From Plantibacter flavus (GTDB lineage: Bacteria; Actinomycetota; Actinomycetes; Actinomycetales; Microbacteriaceae): a DNA stretch of 64,000 nt. The DNA lies in the NCBI RefSeq assembly GCF_002024505.1, contig NZ_CP019402.1:806001-870000 (forward strand), written 5' to 3'. The notes beneath the pieces were generated by a model. The model did no database searches. It was not told where the DNA came from and saw nothing but the letters and a program-made list of their open reading frames with translations. Below are positions 7,243 to 43,550 of the stretch, piece after piece (the first letter of the stretch is position 1; each line of letters opens with the position of its first letter). Made by a program: the position numbers and the translations under genes.

Positions 7243-9120
7243 CTAGCCGATGAGGCTCGGCCGGAGGTCGCGCAGCGTCCTGGCGTGCGTCATCCGCGTC
7301 ACGCCGATCGCCGAGAGGCTCAGTGCGATCGCCAGCCAGGCCAGCAGGACTCCGGCGTCCTGCAGGGCGGCGTCCATCCGTCCCCCGTACATCAACTGGC
7401 GCATGCCGTCGACGGCGTAGGACATCGGGAGCACATGGTGCAGTGCGGCCAGCGGCGCCGGGAGTGTCTGCCACGGGAACGTGCCTCCGGCCGTGACGAG
7501 CTGGGCGACCATGAGCACGAGGCCGAGGAACTGTCCGACGCTGCCGAACCACACGTTGAGCGTCAGGATGATCGCCGCGAAGGTGAGGGACGCGAGCGCC
7601 ATCATCCCGTAGGTCGCGAGCGGGTTGTGGACCTCGAAGTGCAGGGCGCCGGCGAGGATCCCGAACAGCGCGACCATCTGGATCGTGCCGAGGAGGCCGG
7701 GCGTGAGCCAGCCGGCGACGGTCACCTTGATGGGGCTGTGGAGCGCCGTGATCGCGCGCCGCGAGACCGGCTTGACGATGAGGAAGAGCGCGTAGATGCC
7801 GATCCAGGCGGCGAGGCTGACGAAGAACGGCGCGAGTCCCGCTCCGTAGGTGCCCGCGCTCGTCACGGAGGAGTTGGTCAGCTTGACCGGGTCGGCGATC
7901 GTCTTGGCCTGGAGTTCGCGGGAGTCCGCGGTGGTCGCTGGGATGGCGTCCGCGCCGGACTGCAGACCGTCGCGGAGGGTGACGATGCCGTCACGGAGGG
8001 TGCCGAGGCCCGTCTGCAGGGTCGTGAGGCCGGTCTGCAGCGACGCCGCGCCGTCGGCGGCCTGCTGCGTCCCCGAGGCGAGCGCGGGCATCGCGTCACT
8101 CAGCGTCCGGGCGCCTCCGGCGACCTGCTGGGCACCGCTGTTGAGCTGGTCGACCTGTGAGACGACGGTCTGGACGCGCTCGTTCGCCGTCGTGGCGTCG
8201 GCTGCCACCGGGTCGAGGAGCGCCAGCACCTGGGCGATCTGCTCGGGGGTGAAACCGTTCTCCGCGAGCGTCTGTGAGATCTGGGCGCGGGCCGTGGGGA
8301 TCGAGTCGACGAGTCGCTGGGCGGCTGCTCCGACCTCGTCACCCTTGCCGGCGAGGGTCGACGTCCCGGACGCGACCTGCTCGGCACCCGAGGCCAGCTG
8401 ATCGGTCTGCGAGGGCAGGCTGGCCGTCCCCGCGGCGATCTGGGCCGTGCCGGACGCGAGGGTCGCAGCGCCGGCCTGGGCGGTCCCGGCGCCGTCGAAG
8501 GCCTGCTGTGCGCCGTCGGCCAGCTGCGTCGCGCCCGAGGTGGCGTCGACGAGCTTCGTCTTGATCGTGTCGAGCGCGATGAGGAACCGGCCGGCGGCCT
8601 GGCGGTTCACCGTCTGCACGATGGTCGCTTTGATCTGCTTGACGGCCTGCTCGCCGATGGTCGTCGCCAGGTAGCTGTTGGCGTCGTTCGTCGTGAGCTG
8701 CACCGTCGCCTGCTGCGGGGCGTCGCCCGACGCGGAGGTGAGGGAGGTCGAGAAGTCGGCGGGGATCGTGACGCTGAAGTCGAAGGTCCCGTCGTTCACC
8801 CCCCGGGCGGCGTCGGCCGCGCTGACCTCGTGCCAGGCGAACGAGCCGTCCTCGATGAGCTGGTCGGCGATGTCGTCGCCGTAGTTCTCCGTCTCGCCGG
8901 TCGCGTCGCCGGTGGTGTCGTCGGTCGCCGGCGCACCGGTGTCCTCGACGACGAGCGCCACGGGCACCTGGTCGAGCTTGGCGTACGGGTCCTGGTTCGC
9001 CCAGAGGTACAGGCCGCCGTAGAGCAGCGGGACGCACATGAGGGCGACGAGGGCGAGCCGCGACATGGGCGTGGCCCACAGGCGGGACAGTTCGGCGCGG
9101 ATCATCGCGAAGATCTTCAC
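7243..9120 (-). CDS. YhgE/Pip-type membrane protein (ABC-2 fold)
   Basis: 625 residues. One N-terminal membrane helix (about residues 18-40) is followed by a large extracytoplasmic region. It begins with the YhgE/Pip N-terminal domain and continues as Ala/Gly/Gln-rich repeats of the type QLASGAEQVASGTSTLAG, which predict long helices. Five or six C-terminal membrane helices resemble the ABC-2 permease fold. Family members include a Lactococcus phage infection protein and components tied to membrane transport; the reaction is not established. It is last in an operon with a degenerate ABC ATPase and a TetR regulator, which suggests regulated export or envelope maintenance. A second member lies at 37821-39863. 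Confidence 0.88.
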   Translation of the reverse strand: MKIFAMIRAELSRLWATPMSRLALVALMCVPLLYGGLYLWANQDPYAKLDQVPVALVVEDTGAPATDDTTGDATGETENYGDDIADQLIEDGSFAWHEVSAADAARGVNDGTFDFSVTIPADFSTSLTSASGDAPQQATVQLTTNDANSYLATTIGEQAVKQIKATIVQTVNRQAAGRFLIALDTIKTKLVDATSGATQLADGAQQAFDGAGTAQAGAATLASGTAQIAAGTASLPSQTDQLASGAEQVASGTSTLAGKGDEVGAAAQRLVDSIPTARAQISQTLAENGFTPEQIAQVLALLDPVAADATTANERVQTVVSQVDQLNSGAQQVAGGARTLSDAMPALASGTQQAADGAASLQTGLTTLQTGLGTLRDGIVTLRDGLQSGADAIPATTADSRELQAKTIADPVKLTNSSVTSAGTYGAGLAPFFVSLAAWIGIYALFLIVKPVSRRAITALHSPIKVTVAGWLTPGLLGTIQMVALFGILAGALHFEVHNPLATYGMMALASLTFAAIILTLNVWFGSVGQFLGLVLMVAQLVTAGGTFPWQTLPAPLAALHHVLPMSYAVDGMRQLMYGGRMDAALQDAGVLLAWLAIALSLSAIGVTRMTHARTLRDLRPSLIG

Positions 9121-9190
9121 AGGAGGTCCTTCTGGGGACGGGTGGTGCGGGATGAGGTGGTGGCTGGACGGTGGTGGTGCACGGTGTGCG

Positions 9191-9847
9191 TCACGACCAG
9201 TCCTGCTGGAAGAGGGGGACGAGTTCGTCCGTGGCGTTCTCGGACACCGGGGCGTCCGCGGTGGCGTTGATGGCTGTCGCCGAAGCGTCGCCGGCGATCA
9301 CGAGGACGCCGTAGCCGCGGGCGGCGAGCTTGCGGGCGAGGTTCCACCACTCGAGCGGGTCGCCGCCGTGGCGGTCGGGGGAGACGAGGACGAGTGCGGT
9401 GACGTCCTCCCGGAGGACCGCGAGCTCGGTGAGGAGCCGCACGCGGTCGGTCGGCGCGACGGTCGAGATCGGCTGCTTCGCGAGGTGTGCGAGGTCGAGC
9501 GACTCGAGGAACCGCGCGACGGCGAAGGGGTGGCTCGCCCGGCCGGCGAACATGAGCTCCTCGGCGACGACGCCGGAGACCGCGACGCCGCTGGCCGGTT
9601 CGGAGACGTCGGGCGCGTCGATGAGGGCGATCACGCGGCGCATCGTCTTGCGGTCGGTCGCTCCGTCGACGAGGACGGTCCCGGTGTCGGGCTTCATCCG
9701 GCCGGAGGCGATGAGGCCGAGGACGGTCGGCCGCTGCTCGGTCTCGGCGCGGGCGAAGGTCGCCTCGCCCGTCCGGAAGGAGAGGGAGGTCGGCTCGAGG
9801 ACGATGCCGCCCTTGCCCTTGGAGACGCCGTCGAGTTCAACGCGCAT
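9191..9847 (-). CDS. Degenerate ABC-type nucleotide-binding domain protein
   Basis: 218 residues that follow the ABC ATPase layout but lack its catalytic motifs. The N-terminal strand MRVELDGVSKGKGG and the segment LIASGRMKPDTGTVLVDG match the regions around Walker A in ABC proteins. The Walker A loop itself is AETEQRPTVL, with no GKS/T. The usual LSGGQ is TVAPTDRV, and the Walker B region reads TALVLVSPDRHG without the glutamate. ATP hydrolysis is therefore unlikely. Its ATG lies inside the end of the TetR gene (11-base overlap), with AGGAG just upstream, so the two are translationally coupled. It probably partners the YhgE/Pip protein encoded 70 bases downstream. Other starts further upstream lack support. 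Confidence 0.75.
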   Translation of the reverse strand: MRVELDGVSKGKGGIVLEPTSLSFRTGEATFARAETEQRPTVLGLIASGRMKPDTGTVLVDGATDRKTMRRVIALIDAPDVSEPASGVAVSGVVAEELMFAGRASHPFAVARFLESLDLAHLAKQPISTVAPTDRVRLLTELAVLREDVTALVLVSPDRHGGDPLEWWNLARKLAARGYGVLVIAGDASATAINATADAPVSENATDELVPLFQQDWS

Positions 9848-10532
9848 GGGAGGGCTCCTCGTTCGTGCCGGTGCCGGCGGTGTGCCGGTGGGTGCCTGCG
9901 TGTCCGGTGTCGGCGCGGTCGGCGACCGCCGTGGCGTCCTGCCACGACAGACCGACAGCCCCGAGCGTGGCGAGCATGACGAGGCGGCGGCCGGCGCTCG
10001 TCGAGAGGCCGGACCGGGTCGCCTCTTCGAGCACCCCGACGGCCGTGCTCTCGACGAGTCGGGCGAGGACGCCGGCGTCGATGTCGGGGCGGATGGAACC
10101 GTCCGCGACACCGGCCTCGACGGTGCGGAGGAGGAGGGTCCGAACGGGTTCGAGGGCTGCCGCCGTGACGGCGCGGAGCGGCCCGCGGACGGCGAGCGGC
10201 GCCATGATCCGGACGTGGTCCACCTGGGCCCAGAGGACGTCGCCGATGAGCGCGATGGTGGTGAGCGGGTCCTCGCCTCGGACGGCCGTGATCGACGCGG
10301 CGACGCGCTCGGCCCCAGCCACGACGACGGCGTTCACGAGCTCGTCGCGCGTGGCGAAGTGTCCGTACACCGAACGGCGGGTGAGGCCGGCGGCGGCCGC
10401 GATGGTCTCGAGGCTGGCGTCGGGGTCGCTGCGGAGCGCCAGGCGGGCGGCTTCGAGCAGCGCGAGGCGGTTCTCCGCGGCGTCGCGACGAGGGGCGCGC
10501 GACCCGCTAGCAGGCGCTTGGGTGGTGGTCAT
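9837..10532 (-). CDS. TetR-family transcriptional regulator
   Basis: 231 residues. The N-terminal helix-turn-helix reads SLETIAAAAGLTRRSVYGHF at about residues 42-62, the classic TetR pattern, followed by an all-helical ligand domain. A His/Thr-rich tail ends the protein. The ATG at 10532 has no ribosome site and begins seven bases after a good -10 box, so the mRNA is probably leaderless. A palindrome overlaps the -35 box, which fits autorepression. The gene heads the operon with the degenerate ATPase and the YhgE/Pip protein and probably controls it. Confidence 0.9.
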   Translation of the reverse strand: MTTTQAPASGSRAPRRDAAENRLALLEAARLALRSDPDASLETIAAAAGLTRRSVYGHFATRDELVNAVVVAGAERVAASITAVRGEDPLTTIALIGDVLWAQVDHVRIMAPLAVRGPLRAVTAAALEPVRTLLLRTVEAGVADGSIRPDIDAGVLARLVESTAVGVLEEATRSGLSTSAGRRLVMLATLGAVGLSWQDATAVADRADTGHAGTHRHTAGTGTNEEPSHAR

Positions 10533-10539
10533 GACAGCG

Positions 10540-10568
10540 ATCGTACTATCTTGCACAGCGGTGTGCAA
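10540..10568 (-). promoter_or_regulatory. Leaderless promoter with TetR operator
   Basis: On the minus strand TTGCAC (10568-10563), a 17-base spacer and TACGAT (10545-10540) form a near-consensus promoter. Seven bases separate the -10 from the ATG of the TetR gene, so transcription should begin at or next to the start codon. The palindrome TTGCAC-N6-GTGCAA at 10551-10568 covers the -35 box and the spacer, the usual place for an autorepressor. Confidence 0.7.
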
Positions 10569-37820: not shown

Positions 37821-39863
37821 TCAGGTGACGGCCGGGACGAGGGCCTTCACCGACGTGGTCCTCGCCCGGGCGATCGCGAACGTCGTGGCGGCGAGCGATC
37901 CGAGGAGCCAGAGGACGAGGCCGACGACGCCGGCCGCTGCTCCCGCGTCACCGATCGCGATCGCCTGCAGACCGCCGAGAGCCGGTGCGATCGGCAGGAA
38001 CGCGAGGATCTGGTCCAGCACCTGCGGAGCGGTCGCGATGATCCCGGTCGCCAGACCGACGAGCGCGACGATCATCGAGATGAACCGACCTGCACCACCG
38101 AACAGGGCGTTCAGTGCCTGGTTGGCGGCGGCGAAGACGAGCCCTGCGAGGACGGCGACCCCGGCGAAGCCGAGCCAGCCGCCCGCGTCGAGGTCCAGCA
38201 GCGGTGCGGTGATGACGGCGACGAGTAGGCCCTGCAGCATCCCGATCGCTCCGGCCGGGACGAAGGCCCCGAGCGCGAGCCGCAGCGATGAGCGGGTGGA
38301 TCCGAACGCCCGCACGGGCACCGGCCGCAGCACGAGGAAGCTCGCGAGCGCACCCAGCCAGAGGGCGAGGACGGCGTAGAAGGGAGCGCTGTTCGTGCCA
38401 AAGGACACCGTCGCCGAATCGCCGGCCGAGACCGGGTCGGCGACGACGTCCGCGAGCGTCTGTCGGTCGGAGCTCGTGTAGGTCGGCAGGCTGTCGACCG
38501 CGCTCTGCAGACCGGACGCGAGCGAGGTGATTCCGCCGGACAGGGTGCCGGCGCCCGAAGCGAGCTGGTTCGACGCGTCGGCGAGCTGGGTCGTACCGGT
38601 CGCCGACTGCGCCGCGCCGTCGGCGAGTGCGGACGCCCCCGTCTGCAGTTGCGTCGTCCCGGAGGCGGCTTTGGACGCACCATCGGCGAGGCCTGCCGCT
38701 CCGGCCGCGATCTGCGCCGCCGCGGTGTTGATCTTGGCGATGCCGTCGACGAGTGCGGGCATGCCGGAGGAGAACTGCTTGGTCGTCGTCGCCAGCGATG
38801 TGGTGCCGGGATACCCGGTCGAGACGTCGCCGTCGGTGAGGGCGGTGGCGGTGCCGACGGTCGTGAGGATGTCCTTGCACAGCGTCGGGTCGATCGCCGT
38901 CAGCGCTGCCGCCTTCACCGGGTCCAGGCAGCGAGCCGCCACGGACGTCGCCGCAGCCTTCGTCGCGTCGGCGACGCGGGAGGTTCCGGTCGCCGCCTCG
39001 GCGAGCCCATTGGCCCCACCGACCAGCCCCGGGTTGTCCGCGCTCCCGTCACCCTGCGTCCCGGCGTACAGCGTCGCCGCTCCGCTGGCGAGCTGGCTCG
39101 CGCCGCCGCTCAGTTGCGACGCACCGGACGAGAGCTGCGTGGCGCCGTCGGCCAGCGCATCCACCCCGTCGCTCAGCTGCGTCGCACCCGACGACAACTG
39201 CGTCGCGCCCGTGGCCAGCTGCGTGGTGCCGTTCGCGAGTTGCTGCGCACCCTGCGCGAGCGAGAGTCCGCCCGTCGAGAGTTGCTTCGCACCGTCGGCG
39301 GCCTCACCGAGCTGGTCGTGGAGGGTGTTGAACCCGACGTAGACGTTCTCGAGGTAGGTGGTGGTGAGCTGCCGACCGAGGAGCGAAGCCGCGGTCTGCG
39401 TGATCGTCTGGGAGATGGCGTCGTCGACGAGCTTGCTGCGGTCGCTCGTCGTGACGTCGAGGCGGGCGCGCTCGGCGTCGGCGGCGTCGCCGGAGAACGA
39501 GGTCGCGGCCTTCGAGAAGTTCTCCGGGATCGTCACGACCGCCGTGTACGAACCGTCGGCGAGGCCGGCCTTCGCGTCGGACGCGTCGGTGATGACCCAG
39601 GTGTAGTTGGTCTTCTGGTCGCCGTCGACGAGGCCCGCGGAGAGCTGGCGTCCGAGCGGCACGGTCTGGCCGTCGACGGTGACCGGCTTGTCGTCGTTCA
39701 CGATGGCGGCGGTCACCTGACCGAGTCGTTCCGTCGGGTTCCACAGGGCCCAGACGAGTCCACCCGCGATGACGAGCGGCACGAGGATGAGGCCGATGAT
39801 CGAGACGACCGTGATGCCCTTGCCGGAGCGGGCCCGTTCGAGGCGGTTCAGGATGGTGCTCAT
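37821..39863 (-). CDS. YhgE/Pip-type membrane protein, second copy
   Basis: 680 residues with the same plan as the protein at 7243-9120. There is one N-terminal helix, a YhgE/Pip domain, and a long extracytoplasmic section of repeats such as QLSSGATQLSDGVDAL, predicted to form extended helices. About six ABC-2-type membrane helices end the protein. The start overlaps the stop of the MMPL gene by four bases, so the two are made together. Two cysteines in the outside domain (in ARCLDPVK and PTLCKDIL) may form a disulphide. The role is probably envelope export or lipid handling, by association with MMPL. Confidence 0.88.
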   Translation of the reverse strand: MSTILNRLERARSGKGITVVSIIGLILVPLVIAGGLVWALWNPTERLGQVTAAIVNDDKPVTVDGQTVPLGRQLSAGLVDGDQKTNYTWVITDASDAKAGLADGSYTAVVTIPENFSKAATSFSGDAADAERARLDVTTSDRSKLVDDAISQTITQTAASLLGRQLTTTYLENVYVGFNTLHDQLGEAADGAKQLSTGGLSLAQGAQQLANGTTQLATGATQLSSGATQLSDGVDALADGATQLSSGASQLSGGASQLASGAATLYAGTQGDGSADNPGLVGGANGLAEAATGTSRVADATKAAATSVAARCLDPVKAAALTAIDPTLCKDILTTVGTATALTDGDVSTGYPGTTSLATTTKQFSSGMPALVDGIAKINTAAAQIAAGAAGLADGASKAASGTTQLQTGASALADGAAQSATGTTQLADASNQLASGAGTLSGGITSLASGLQSAVDSLPTYTSSDRQTLADVVADPVSAGDSATVSFGTNSAPFYAVLALWLGALASFLVLRPVPVRAFGSTRSSLRLALGAFVPAGAIGMLQGLLVAVITAPLLDLDAGGWLGFAGVAVLAGLVFAAANQALNALFGGAGRFISMIVALVGLATGIIATAPQVLDQILAFLPIAPALGGLQAIAIGDAGAAAGVVGLVLWLLGSLAATTFAIARARTTSVKALVPAVT

Positions 39864-42712
39864 GCGTCGACCTTCGATTCAGCGATGGCGGTGGGAGTGG
39901 ACGTGGTGGTGGAGGCGGTGCGGTCGAGGTCGAGCACCTCGGCCGTCGTGGTCGGCAGGACGTCGGCGAGCGAGGACGCGTCAGCGGTGCCGACGACGAT
40001 CGTGAGCGGCCGGCGCGTGCGCTCCGCGGCCCTGGTCGCCGTCAGGAGGCGCTCGTACAGTCCGCGTCTCGTGTCGTCGTCCGGCACGGTGTCGACCCCG
40101 TCGAGGACGATGACGGCGGGGCGTTCGGCCAGCGCCGTGGCGAGTGTCCCGACGGGTTCGCCGTGGTCGAGACGGACGTACGCGACGCGGGACCGCACCG
40201 CCCCGGCGCGGACCGGCAGGACCAGACCGGCGACCTTGAGGCGGCCGTGGTCGGGTTCGAGGCGACCGGCCAGTGTCAGCAGGAGGGCGGTGACCGAGAC
40301 CGGGCGCGTGCCCTGCACCGCGAGCACGCCGCCGACGGCGACGGTCGTGTCGACGTCCTCGTACAGCGGTCCGTCCGCACCGGCCAGGGTGACTCCCGCG
40401 GCGGCGATGGCGACCTCGTCACCGTTGCGCCACTCGCGCAGCTCGAGTTCGCGCTGCAGCCCCTCGCCCTCGACGTCGAAGGACGGCAGGATGCGGTCGA
40501 GCCACTTCGGCAGGTACCAGGCGTGGTCGCCGAGGAGCGCGAGCACCGCCGGCACGAGGGTCATGCGCACGATGAACGCGTCGACGAAGACGCCGACCGC
40601 GAGCCCGAGGGCGATGGGCTTGATGTTCGTGTCGCCCTCGGGCACGAAGGCGGCGAAGACCGCGAACATGATGACGGCCGCGGCGGTGACGACCTTCGCC
40701 GAGCCGAGGAAGCCGGTCTCGACGGATCGCTTCGCGAGTCCTGAATGGACGAAGTCCTCGCGCATCCGGGAGACGAGGAAGACCTCGTAGTCCATCGCGA
40801 GCCCGAACAGGACACCCATGAGGATGATCGGCATGAAGCTGATCACCGGACCGGTCCTCGCGACGTGGAGGGCCTCGGCGAACACGCCGTGCTCGAAGAC
40901 GAGGGCCACGACGCCGAACGACGCGGCGACCGACAGCAGGTAGCCGAGGGTCGCCTTGATCGGGACCCAGATGGAGCGGAAGACCATCGTCAGGAGCACG
41001 AGCGAGAGGCCGACGACGATGAGGCCGAAGGGGAGGAGGGCGCCGCCGAGGCGGTCGGAGATGTCGATGCCGATGGCCGTGAACCCGGTGACCTGGAGGT
41101 CGACGCCGTACTCGTCCTGGAAGTACTGGTGCAGTCCCCGGATCTCGGCGACGAGGTCCTTCGTCGCCTGGGAGTCGGGACTGCCGCTCGGGATGACCTG
41201 GATGATGCCGGTGTCGGCCGTCGCGTTCGGGGTGGCGAGCGGGACGGCGGCGACGCCGTCGAGTCCCTCGATCTCCTGCTTGAGGTCGGCCATGAGTCCG
41301 AGCGGGTCGGTACTGCCGACGATGCCGCCGGTGACGATGAGCGGCCCGTTGAAGCCCTCACCGAAGTGCTCGGAGACGAGGTCGTACGTCGTGCGGGCTC
41401 CGTCGCCCTCCGGCAGCGAACCGGCGTCGGGGAGCGCGAGTCGGAGCGACAGGGCGGGGATGGCGAGGGCGCCCAGGACGGCGACGACGGCGACGATCGT
41501 GACGATGGGGAGTCGCGTGACGCCTCGCACCCAGCCGAGGAAGAAGCGGTTGGGGTGCCCTTCGACAGGCTCAGGGGCCGCGGTGTGGTGCTCAGGGACC
41601 GCGGTGTGGTGCTCAGGGACCGAGGCCTGTGGGACGTCGACCGGCTCGGCGGCGCCCCGGGCCGCCGCGCGCTTCCTGGCCCGCCTGGCCTTCGGCCGGA
41701 GGCGCTCGCCGGCGAAGCCGAGCATGGCCGGGATGAGGCTGAGCGAGATGACGACCGCGATCGCGACGCCGACCGCCGCGGCGACACCCATCGTCGTGAG
41801 GAACGGGATGTTCGCGACCGCGAGCCCGAGGAGGGCGATGATGACCGTGAGGCCCGCGAAGATGACGGCGGAACCGGCCGTCGCGGTCGCGCGGGCGGCC
41901 GACTCGGCAGGGTCGAGCCCGCTGCGCAGACCGTCCTGGTGTCTCGAGATGATGAACAGCGCGTAGTCGATGCCGACGGCCAGGCCGAGCATGAGCGCGA
42001 GCATCGGCGTCGTGGAGGAGATCGGCCCGAAGACCGTCGCCACGAAGATGAGCGCCATCGAGATGCCGACCCCGAGCAGGGCGGTGATGAGCGGCATGCC
42101 CGCGGCGAGGAAGGAGCCGAAGGTGAGGATGAGGACGACGAGCGCGACGACCACGCCGACGAGCTCGATGACACTCAACGTCGGGAGGCTGTTGCTGAAC
42201 AGCTGCCCGCCGAGGGAGGACTCCGCGCCGGCGGGGAGCGCTTTCGCGAGGCTCGCCTCCGCGTCCTCGACGTCACGGATGGTGGCGGCGGTGATGTCGG
42301 TCTGCGCCCCGTCGAACTGGATCGAGATGAGCGCCGCCCGCTGATCCTCCGAGACCGCCCCCGTCACGTTCTCGTCGAACGGGGAGACCGCCTGCTCCAC
42401 CTGCCCGATGTCGCCCAGGGCGGTGACGGCGTCGTCGATCGCCGATCGGACCCCGGCGTCCTCGACGGTGTCGCCCTCCGGTGCGACGACGATGATCTGC
42501 GCCGAGGCGCCGGCCACCTGCGGGAAGGTGTGGTCGAGCGAGTCGAGCGCCTCCTGCGACTCCGTGCCGGGGATGGAGAAGGCGTTGTCGGTGCCCTGGT
42601 TGAAGAGCAGCGCGCCGCCACCCGCGAGGGCGAGCACGGCGATCCAGAGGATCAGCACGAGCCTGCGGGCGCCGAACGCCCAGCGGCCGAGGGTGTAGAG
42701 CAGTGAGGACAC
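39860..42712 (-). CDS. MMPL-family RND transporter fused to a degenerate ABC ATPase domain
   Basis: 950 residues from GTG with AGGAG upstream. Residues 1-720 form an MMPL transporter: two sets of membrane helices, each preceded by an outside domain, with the proton-relay region PMLALMLGLAVGIDYALFII and the second-half match ILMGVLFGLAMDYEVFLVSR. Residues of about 745-930 look like an ABC nucleotide-binding domain. GGVLAVQGTRPVSVTALLLT replaces Walker A, TLAGRLEPDHGRLKVAG follows, and PAVIVLDGVDTV resembles Walker B. No GKS/T or LSGGQ is present. A linker between the halves encodes PEHHTAVPEHHTAAPEPVEG from an inserted repeat. Such a fused ATPase-like domain is unusual for MMPL proteins. Confidence 0.87.
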   Translation of the reverse strand: MSSLLYTLGRWAFGARRLVLILWIAVLALAGGGALLFNQGTDNAFSIPGTESQEALDSLDHTFPQVAGASAQIIVVAPEGDTVEDAGVRSAIDDAVTALGDIGQVEQAVSPFDENVTGAVSEDQRAALISIQFDGAQTDITAATIRDVEDAEASLAKALPAGAESSLGGQLFSNSLPTLSVIELVGVVVALVVLILTFGSFLAAGMPLITALLGVGISMALIFVATVFGPISSTTPMLALMLGLAVGIDYALFIISRHQDGLRSGLDPAESAARATATAGSAVIFAGLTVIIALLGLAVANIPFLTTMGVAAAVGVAIAVVISLSLIPAMLGFAGERLRPKARRARKRAAARGAAEPVDVPQASVPEHHTAVPEHHTAAPEPVEGHPNRFFLGWVRGVTRLPIVTIVAVVAVLGALAIPALSLRLALPDAGSLPEGDGARTTYDLVSEHFGEGFNGPLIVTGGIVGSTDPLGLMADLKQEIEGLDGVAAVPLATPNATADTGIIQVIPSGSPDSQATKDLVAEIRGLHQYFQDEYGVDLQVTGFTAIGIDISDRLGGALLPFGLIVVGLSLVLLTMVFRSIWVPIKATLGYLLSVAASFGVVALVFEHGVFAEALHVARTGPVISFMPIILMGVLFGLAMDYEVFLVSRMREDFVHSGLAKRSVETGFLGSAKVVTAAAVIMFAVFAAFVPEGDTNIKPIALGLAVGVFVDAFIVRMTLVPAVLALLGDHAWYLPKWLDRILPSFDVEGEGLQRELELREWRNGDEVAIAAAGVTLAGADGPLYEDVDTTVAVGGVLAVQGTRPVSVTALLLTLAGRLEPDHGRLKVAGLVLPVRAGAVRSRVAYVRLDHGEPVGTLATALAERPAVIVLDGVDTVPDDDTRRGLYERLLTATRAAERTRRPLTIVVGTADASSLADVLPTTTAEVLDLDRTASTTTSTPTAIAESKVDA
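41557..41621. repeat. Dispersed repeat inside the MMPL coding region
   Basis: A 24-base copy of the CCCTTCGACAGGCTCAGGG repeat (41557-41580) followed by two 21-base direct repeats (41580-41600, 41601-41621) that each end in CTCAGGGACC. They are read in frame as a His/Pro/Glu linker in the MMPL protein. Confidence 0.8.
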
Positions 42713-42776
42713 GCGTCGCTCCTAGGGAGGTCGGCGCTGCTTGCAGGCGAGCCGACGGAGAGGTTCGGACAGGATC

Positions 42777-42826
42777 GATACAGCGGTGTATCCGATACAC
42801 GACTGTATTGGATACAGTGGTGTATC
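42777..42826. promoter_or_regulatory. Three tandem TetR operators
   Basis: GATACA-N4-TGTATC occurs at 42777-42792 and 42811-42826, with GATACA-N4-TGTATT at 42794-42809 between them. The three start exactly 17 bases apart. They lie in the 151-base gap between the MMPL gene and the divergent TetR gene. Confidence 0.85.
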
Positions 42827-42863
42827 GGCAAGAAGTCGGTCGAGCTGTCAGTAAGGTGTCAGG

Positions 42864-43550
42864 ATGCGCGTGCACGAAGCGGTCGAATCCCCGGGCGACG
42901 AAGCGCCGGTCGAGTCCGCGCGTCGGCAGCGGACGCGCGAGCGGCTCGTCGACGCCGCCTACGAGGTCTTCGCCGAGTTCGGCGTGCACGCCGCCTCCGT
43001 CGAGCAGATCAGCGAGCGCGCAGGCTTCACCCGCGGCGCCTTCTACTCCAACTTCGACTCGAAGGAGGAGCTGTTCTTCGCCCTCGAGTCACGCGAGAAC
43101 CAGCTCCGACTCGACCGCCTGGAGGCTGGACTGCAGGCGGTCAGCCCGTCGCTCCTCGACGCAGCGGGCCGCTACACCGAGGGCTCGCTCGAGGCCCTGA
43201 TCCGTGCCTTCCTCGAGCTCCAGCCCGATGACCGCCGCTGGTGCCTCGTCCAGTCGGAGTTCCGGATGCTGGCGATGCGCGACGCCGACGTCGCCGCCCG
43301 CTACCTCCAGCACCAGGAGAGCGCGGGCCGGCAGCTCGCCGCGTGGCTCGACCAGGCGGCCGGACTCGCGCACGTCCGGTTCACGATCCCGACGCCCGAC
43401 ATCGCGAACATCGTCGTCGCCCTCTACGAGTCGGCCATCCAGACGGCCGTGCTCATGGACCCGGACGGCGACGAGGGCTCACCGCGCGAGCTCGCGATGC
43501 GCACGCTCCCGGCCATCGTCCGCGCCCTCACCGAGTCGACCGCCGACTGA
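42864..43550 (+). CDS. TetR-family regulator of the MMPL-YhgE operon
   Basis: 228 residues. The helix-turn-helix reads SVEQISERAGFTRGAFYSNF at about residues 46-66, followed by a helical ligand domain with NIVVALYESAIQTAVLM. It is divergent from the MMPL gene, and the gap holds three identical-spaced palindromes, so it most likely represses both directions. It ends two bases before the convergent VOC gene. Confidence 0.92.
   Translation: MRVHEAVESPGDEAPVESARRQRTRERLVDAAYEVFAEFGVHAASVEQISERAGFTRGAFYSNFDSKEELFFALESRENQLRLDRLEAGLQAVSPSLLDAAGRYTEGSLEALIRAFLELQPDDRRWCLVQSEFRMLAMRDADVAARYLQHQESAGRQLAAWLDQAAGLAHVRFTIPTPDIANIVVALYESAIQTAVLMDPDGDEGSPRELAMRTLPAIVRALTESTAD

Follow-up and report, generated by a model that had tools for sequence, protein, structure and literature searches.

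Actinobacterial YhgE/Pip membrane proteins are mostly encoded beside a predicted degenerate ABC nucleotide-binding domain, either stand-alone or fused to an MMPL transporter

The subject of this study is a gene module centred on a YhgE/Pip membrane protein, which occurs at two loci in a 64,000-nucleotide stretch of DNA (the window; positions 806001–870000 of the single-contig 4.21-Mb genome of Plantibacter flavus). At locus 1 (7243–10532 in window coordinates, used throughout) the genes for a TetR-family regulator, a 218-residue protein, and YhgE/Pip follow one another on the minus strand. At locus 2 (37821–43550) a tetR gene diverges from minus-strand genes for an MMPL transporter and a second YhgE/Pip protein. 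The 218-residue protein has the predicted fold of an ATP-binding cassette (ABC) nucleotide-binding domain (NBD) whose hydrolytic motifs have been lost. A pseudo-NBD of this kind, either as a separate protein or as the C-terminal domain of an MMPL protein, is a near-constant neighbour of YhgE/Pip genes in actinobacteria. We consider it fairly probable that actinobacterial YhgE/Pip is an ABC-2-type permease whose retired NBD has been kept as a structural or adaptor subunit; the fused form may be energised by its MMPL protein. Positions of the features are given in Table 1.

A preliminary description, made from the sequence of the window, had proposed that the 218-residue protein keeps the ABC nucleotide-binding layout but has lost its Walker A, LSGGQ, and Walker B glutamate. 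Structure prediction agreed with this: the model has the ABC NBD fold (predicted local distance difference test score, pLDDT, 84.8), and its best structural matches were EcfA and LptB. The Walker A position is occupied by AETEQRPTVL (residues 34–43), so that GxxGxGK[ST] is replaced by AETEQRPT with Pro in place of Lys. APTD stands at the SGGQ position and SPDRHGGDP at the DEPTxGLDP position, and the columns of the Walker B Glu and the H-loop His hold Ser and Gly. No match to PF00005 (ABC_tran; cut-off 25 bits) was obtained even at E ≤ 1. The pseudo-NBD presumably no longer hydrolyses ATP.

A search with the 218-residue protein gave 1381 homologues at E ≤ 0.01. In an alignment of the protein with 34 of 120 listed homologues (35 sequences), the mean conservation of the dead P-loop segment was 0.975 and that of PDRHGGDP was 0.993, compared with a mean of 0.776 over residues 1–196. 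Both of these, and the segment AEELMFAG (0.989), were among the most conserved 8-mers, and residues E35, T36, R39, P40, and P157–G162 were invariant. Because the dead motifs are conserved and the homologues are so numerous, a pseudogene or frameshift artefact was ruled out. Matches of the protein and its profile to "Rab family protein" chains in the PDB, several short repeated stretches with a best value of 9.9e-6, were judged spurious, and matches to the Pfam families LSDAT_prok and Resolvase were set aside because they fell below the cut-off.

The genomic pairing was surveyed in 296 genomes of the class; 106 had TIGR03061 (YhgE/Pip) matches, and in 88 these were over the cut-off. Neighbourhoods were taken for all 116 over-cut-off YhgE/Pip places outside the P. 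flavus genome, and a partner lay directly upstream of 107 of these genes, as a stand-alone protein in 82 cases and as an MMPL C-terminal domain in 25. When the window's own two genes are included, which have one partner of each form, 109 of 118 genes had a directly upstream partner on the same strand (83 ABC-like, 26 MMPL, and 9 none), with a median gap of 3 nt over the 109 pairs. Given that the 4.2-Mb genome has 136 ABC_tran matches, such a frequency and spacing ruled out a chance neighbourhood. A reverse search of the same class genomes with the 218-residue protein gave 20 strong matches outside its own genome (E ≤ 1.1e-19), and all 20 had a YhgE/Pip open reading frame (ORF) directly downstream. 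Over all class loci, the stand-alone form was spread over 13 family codes and the MMPL form over 7. Among 12 plasmid loci that we selected from 57 records, all four actinobacterial ones (Arthrobacter twice, Tsukamurella, and Rhodococcus) also had a partner. A further 80 named loci had been found by means of the pseudo-NBD itself and were not counted for pairing. No single ORF fusing ABC-like and YhgE N-terminal domains was present among the fetched loci. The proposal that the genes form a functional unit is thus upheld by the conservation of their neighbourhood. At locus 1 itself, the pseudo-NBD gene lies directly before the YhgE/Pip gene and its ATG sits 11 nt within the TetR frame, in keeping with the gene order and the TetR coupling originally described.

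Loss of the motifs was then scored in 204 partner domains (82 plus 26 from the class, 2 from the window, 4 from plasmids, and 90 from the named loci). None had the catalytic Glu, SGG at the signature, or the H-loop His, and nine had the P-loop Lys; the signature columns were gapped in 19 rows (MMPL-fused), and one row (locus L109) was gapped over Walker A. SGG strings occurred elsewhere in some of these domains, never at the signature position. An Arg right after the Walker A helix ([AG]GR) was present in 203, the remaining one being a gap. Of 50 ABC domains that lie in these loci but are not partners, 49 had Glu, 46 Lys, and 43 His, and a single one had the post-Walker A Arg; two of these domains are cut off before Walker A, and some double as live references elsewhere in this work. 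The P-loop has decayed stepwise: GKT or GKS remains in nine partners, both fused and stand-alone, GSGRT or GGGRS is commonest outside the Microbacteriaceae, GHT and QRT also occur, and RPT is found in the Microbacteriaceae. When ten other partners, from less to more decayed, were scanned with PF00005, six were over the cut-off (L052 with 59.2 bits), one was just below it, and three had no match. In an NCBIfam scan of the same ten, L052 and L074 matched the DrrA exporter ATPase best, others matched other ABC models, and L073, L049, and L032 matched no NCBIfam ABC model at E 1e-4.

The fused and stand-alone partners are, by sequence, one family. In a tree of 71 rows, retained from 130 offered (114 partners and 16 live references) by a 60% identity filter and built with a "quick" method, the 58 partner representatives of both forms all fell on one side of the 13 live ABC proteins, with a support of 99 by the Shimodaira-Hasegawa-like approximate likelihood ratio test. 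The support was 98 without the Walker A, signature, Walker B, and H-loop columns, and 95 when two long rows were also removed. Branching order among the partners was poorly resolved.

Several arrangements were recorded in the course of this survey. Leifsonia loci L186, L188, L201, and L211 carry an MMPL-pseudo-NBD-YhgE module and a TetR-pseudo-NBD-YhgE module within the same ~10 kb, and L052 and L109 each have tandem pseudo-NBD/YhgE pairs with tetR in between. In Cryobacterium (L202, L205, L209, L212, L213, and L218) a second pair lies beside the first on the other strand, and its pseudo-NBD has GSGRT and FFDQVE, the catalytic Glu being naturally replaced by Gln. L135 and L136, from two class genomes of family f1, have tandem YhgE/Pip-like ORF pairs with tetR nearby and no ABC-like or MMPL partner; one member of each pair is gapped at the transmembrane helix 2 to 3 (TM2–TM3) loop in the alignment. 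L155, L158, L161–L166, and L168–L172 (families f10, f24, and f25) encode short, partnerless YhgE-N-terminal-like proteins of about 420–580 residues, perhaps a separate branch of the family. In public annotation the partners at L253 and L255 are called "ABC transporter ATP-binding protein" or "ATP-binding cassette domain-containing protein" despite their lost hydrolytic motifs, and other partners are called "hypothetical protein".

At locus 2 the second occurrence of the three parts differs from the original account. TetR, an ABC-like part, and YhgE/Pip are all there, as had been stated; however, no gene of its own encodes the ABC-like part, which forms the C-terminal 205 residues of the 950-residue MMPL protein. 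This domain is, by structure prediction and sequence, a pseudo-NBD like the stand-alone partners. Its structure, predicted from 30 of the 31 MMPL C-terminal domains alone, had a pLDDT of 90.8 and matched ABC NBDs (5x41_C, E 2.3e-10), and a profile of the MMPL C-terminal domains matched EcfA by sequence (1.9e-11). Compared with the GKT-bearing fused forms (L128 and L130–L132), it is shortened by the absence of the signature-holding part. The transporter belongs to the MMPL (RND) family by PF03176 and fell far below the MmpL3 cut-off (NF052608, 202.4 bits; cut-off 1400), and its gene overlaps the YhgE/Pip gene by 4 nt. The pseudo-NBD domain was missing from three other MMPL proteins of the genome (756, 882, and 958 residues) outside both YhgE loci; these controls were strong MMPL-profile matches, and weaker PF03176 places were only partly covered. 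One 958-residue MMPL protein, at L277, about 600 kb into the same genome, has the same DVEG start of its C-terminal extension, no ABC-like domain, and a different C-terminus. As a possible parallel, one study of Saccharopolyspora hirsuta lists a YhgE/Pip gene (F1721_04135) and an MMPL gene (F1721_04140) as cholesterol-induced, 3.82-fold and 3.33-fold, respectively (PMC9782250); the two carry neighbouring locus numbers and may be adjacent.

The two YhgE/Pip proteins of the window were the only TIGR03061 matches in the whole genome at E ≤ 0.001. The locus 1 protein scored over the cut-offs of both family models (TIGR03061, 173.9 bits, cut-off 96.15; TIGR03062, 210.3 bits, cut-off 102.2), and the locus 2 protein over the first and below the second (86.6 bits). 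The locus 1 protein was also over the cut-offs of the ABC-2 families PF12698 (82.2 bits, cut-off 31.6) and PF01061, and the locus 2 protein over that of PF12698. No relative of the locus 1 protein was found in the PDB with a single-sequence phmmer search (E ≤ 0.01). ABC-2 (ABCG-like) permeases contact their NBD through a coupling helix in the TM2–TM3 loop. Residues 450–465 of YhgE/Pip, which we take to lie at this position, contain a conserved Arg-Ala-Leu-like motif. Among YhgE/Pip proteins with a stand-alone NBD partner, 84 of 85 had the loop Arg, and among those with an MMPL partner 17 of 26 did; of the partnerless ones, 3 of 9 from actinobacteria and 1 of 8 from other bacteria carried it. 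This count includes the window's two proteins and leaves aside the named loci, the short ORFs L036, L145, and L264, and 11 proteins that scored below the cut-off and have no partner. The pattern is as expected if the partner binds YhgE/Pip there, although it is not proof of binding. We infer that the pseudo-NBD binds YhgE/Pip.

The locus 1 module appears to have its own regulator. In 55 of 58 Microbacteriaceae loci in which tetR adjoins the pseudo-NBD gene, the palindrome TGCACA-N4-TGTGCA was present upstream of tetR, and the 605 kb of those loci held no copy in any other place. In the whole P. flavus genome the core occurs as a single copy, at 10552–10567 of the window. Because this operator-like core is conserved upstream of tetR and occurs once in the P. 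flavus genome, TetR 1 looks like a dedicated autorepressor of the locus 1 operon. The palindromes between the MMPL and tetR genes of locus 2 differ from it. Of the class modules, 62 of the 82 with a stand-alone partner and 21 of the 26 with an MMPL partner had a tetR gene nearby.

The favoured interpretation would work as follows. The retired NBD would have kept the ABC fold and a dock on the cytoplasmic TM2–TM3 loop of the permease while losing ATP hydrolysis, and the loss of the hydrolytic motifs fits the earlier suggestion that the ATPase-like protein is a structural or regulatory partner. In the stand-alone form of locus 1, the pseudo-NBD may cap and stabilise or gate YhgE/Pip under the control of its dedicated TetR. 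In the fused form of locus 2, the old NBD is the C-terminal tail of an MMPL/RND protein and would thereby tether YhgE/Pip to that transporter. Members of the MMPL family are RND pumps driven by protons, and such a pump could supply the energy that formerly came from ATP. The substrate might be a lipophilic or envelope-active compound. On the sequence comparisons we would class the system as a degenerate ABC-2 system. A bolder proposal, and a doubtful one, is that of a hybrid transporter class: a retired NBD would serve as the adaptor linking a proton-driven RND (MMPL) pump to an ABC-2-type YhgE/Pip, and the stand-alone pair would be a widespread ATP-independent actinobacterial sister form. No description of the pairing or the fusion appeared in the titles and abstract beginnings of the open-access matches listed, subscription papers and preprints lying outside that scope.

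Several results weigh against a retired NBD kept as an adaptor of an ABC-2-type permease. Nine of the 118 over-cut-off YhgE/Pip genes were partnerless (L115, L134, L135 twice, L136 twice, L143, L155, and L158), as were 11 of 12 additional sub-cut-off places, fetched from a longer list. None of the eight non-actinobacterial plasmid loci (Deinococcus twice, Listeria, Enterococcus, Roseburia, Bacillus badius, Staphylococcus, and Leuconostoc) had a partner; because the YhgE/Pip genes of these Firmicutes and Deinococcus plasmid loci lack an adjacent NBD gene, the NBD is not intrinsically needed. The loop Arg is missing from 9 of the 26 MMPL-partnered proteins yet present in three of the nine partnerless actinobacterial ones, and its association with a partner (Fisher P = 9e-9, and 1.5e-4 within actinobacteria) is in neither case corrected for kinship. 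The nine partners that retain a G-x4-GK[ST] P-loop might still bind ATP. The proton drive is taken solely from membership in the MMPL family. Finally, the stand-alone form has no apparent energy source, and so may not transport at all.

Four other explanations were considered. The former ATP site may have been rebuilt for another ligand or protein, making the module a sensor or regulator of YhgE/Pip instead of a docking scaffold. The strong constraint on the remodelled site, with its invariant residues, is in favour of this; however, the replacement residues vary by lineage (GSGRT, GHT, QRT, and RPT), so that no single ligand site is held in common, and the MMPL-fused copy in the window lacks part of the domain. 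We regard this explanation as unlikely. YhgE/Pip could instead be a cell-envelope scaffold or a secretion-related part like EsaA/YueB of the type VIIb secretion system (T7SSb), anchored in the cytoplasm by the pseudo-NBD. Both proteins have weak matches to the EsaA model TIGR03929, an extracellular heptad-repeat region (TIGR03057) is present, and the authors of the PIP_EF study also speculate on cooperation with T7SSb (PMC4999554). The EsaA scores (46.5 and 62.3 bits) are nevertheless far from the cut-off of 122, and the MMPL fusion points to transport, which makes this rather improbable.

It is also quite improbable that the system is still an ATP-driven ABC exporter in which a catalytically live NBD from another locus joins the pseudo-NBD, the arrangement known from asymmetric ABC transporters. 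The genome does offer live ATPases among its 136 PF00005 matches, and the P-loop Lys survives in 9 of 204 partners; none of the 136 matches, however, falls inside 7243–10532 or 37821–43550. In an NBD dimer the two subunits share each ATP site, one contributing Walker A and the other the signature. Because the pseudo-NBD has neither, no complete site would form even with a live NBD, and ATP drive through it is unlikely; the window's MMPL form moreover lacks the whole signature-bearing part. Simple decay of an ABC transporter heading for loss would account for the missing catalytic motifs, but it is contradicted by the strong conservation of the dead motifs, by the pairing in 13 family codes, and by the conserved operator-like site, and we give it practically no weight.

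Compared with known systems, a retired NBD docked on YhgE/Pip resembles the DrrAB-type ABC-2 exporters, whose ABC-2-fold permease gene is directly preceded by the NBD gene; among the ten scanned partners, L052 and L074 match DrrA best, and the locus 1 YhgE/Pip, beyond its PF12698 and PF01061 matches, matches DrrB-type models weakly. Unlike in those exporters, the Walker B Glu, SGG signature, and H-loop His are retained in none of the 204 partner NBDs, and the permease has a large heptad-repeat region. Asymmetric ABC transporters (TM287/288, TmrAB, and CFTR) also have one degenerate NBD, and a second NBD completes one working site; in contrast, neither module of the window encodes a live NBD, and the pseudo-NBD could contribute neither half of a site. 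The MMPL protein of locus 2 resembles other MMPL/MmpL RND transporters in its PF03176 score and differs from them, including the three others of the genome, in its C-terminal pseudo-NBD. The likeness to EsaA/YueB is weak and below the cut-off. The phage-infection proteins of Firmicutes (Lactococcus lactis PIP, Enterococcus faecalis PIP_EF, and Bacillus subtilis YhgE) share the TIGR03061/TIGR03062 family, whereas the non-actinobacterial proteins compared here (six from Firmicutes and two from Deinococcus plasmid loci) lack the NBD-like partner in all eight cases and the loop Arg in all but one.

Table 1. Features of the two YhgE/Pip loci in window coordinates
Feature	Position	Strand	Evidence
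YhgE/Pip membrane protein, 625 aa, ABC-2-like permease (putative)	7243..9120	-	TIGR03061, TIGR03062, PF12698 over cut-off
YhgE/Pip loop, residues 450-465 KPVSRRAITALHSPIK, with Arg conserved in partnered YhgE	7726..7773	-	alignment; presumed topology
Pseudo-NBD, 218 aa, predicted ABC NBD fold without hydrolytic motifs	9191..9847	-	predicted structure and motif alignment
Degenerate Walker A, residues 34-41 AETEQRPT	9725..9748	-	alignment
GRM, residues 49-51; Arg50 is the post-Walker A Arg of 203/204 partners	9695..9703	-	alignment
ABC signature remnant VAPTD	9446..9460	-	alignment
Walker B/D-loop remnant, residues 156-164 SPDRHGGDP	9356..9382	-	alignment
TetR-family regulator, 231 aa	9837..10532	-	PF00440 30.0 bits (cut-off 24)
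Putative TetR operator TTGCACA-N4-TGTGCAA	10551..10568	.	palindrome; core once in the genome
Second YhgE/Pip, 680 aa	37821..39863	-	TIGR03061 130.6 bits, over cut-off; TIGR03062 below
MMPL (RND superfamily) transporter, 950 aa, C-terminal pseudo-NBD	39860..42712	-	PF03176 294.7 bits (cut-off 20.5)
Pseudo-NBD domain of MMPL, residues 746-950, GTRPVSVTALLLTLAGR at P-loop position, signature-bearing helical part missing	39863..40477	-	
Clustered palindromes, GATACA-N4-TGTATC type, putative operators between MMPL and tetR	42777..42826	.	
Second TetR-family regulator, 228 aa, divergent	42864..43550	+	PF00440 58.2 bits (cut-off 24)

The YhgE/PIP domain is without known function according to PMC4999554, and the family includes phage receptors and relatives of a T7SS component. 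The "ATP-binding" names given to some partners in databases are misleading, and the post-Walker A Arg offers a simple tag by which the pseudo-NBD family may be found. The near-constant dead-NBD partner in actinobacteria suggests that YhgE/Pip has its origin in an ABC-2 permease, or still functions as one, and that its energy source has changed, and the MMPL fusion would be a directly testable answer to the question of what replaced ATP.

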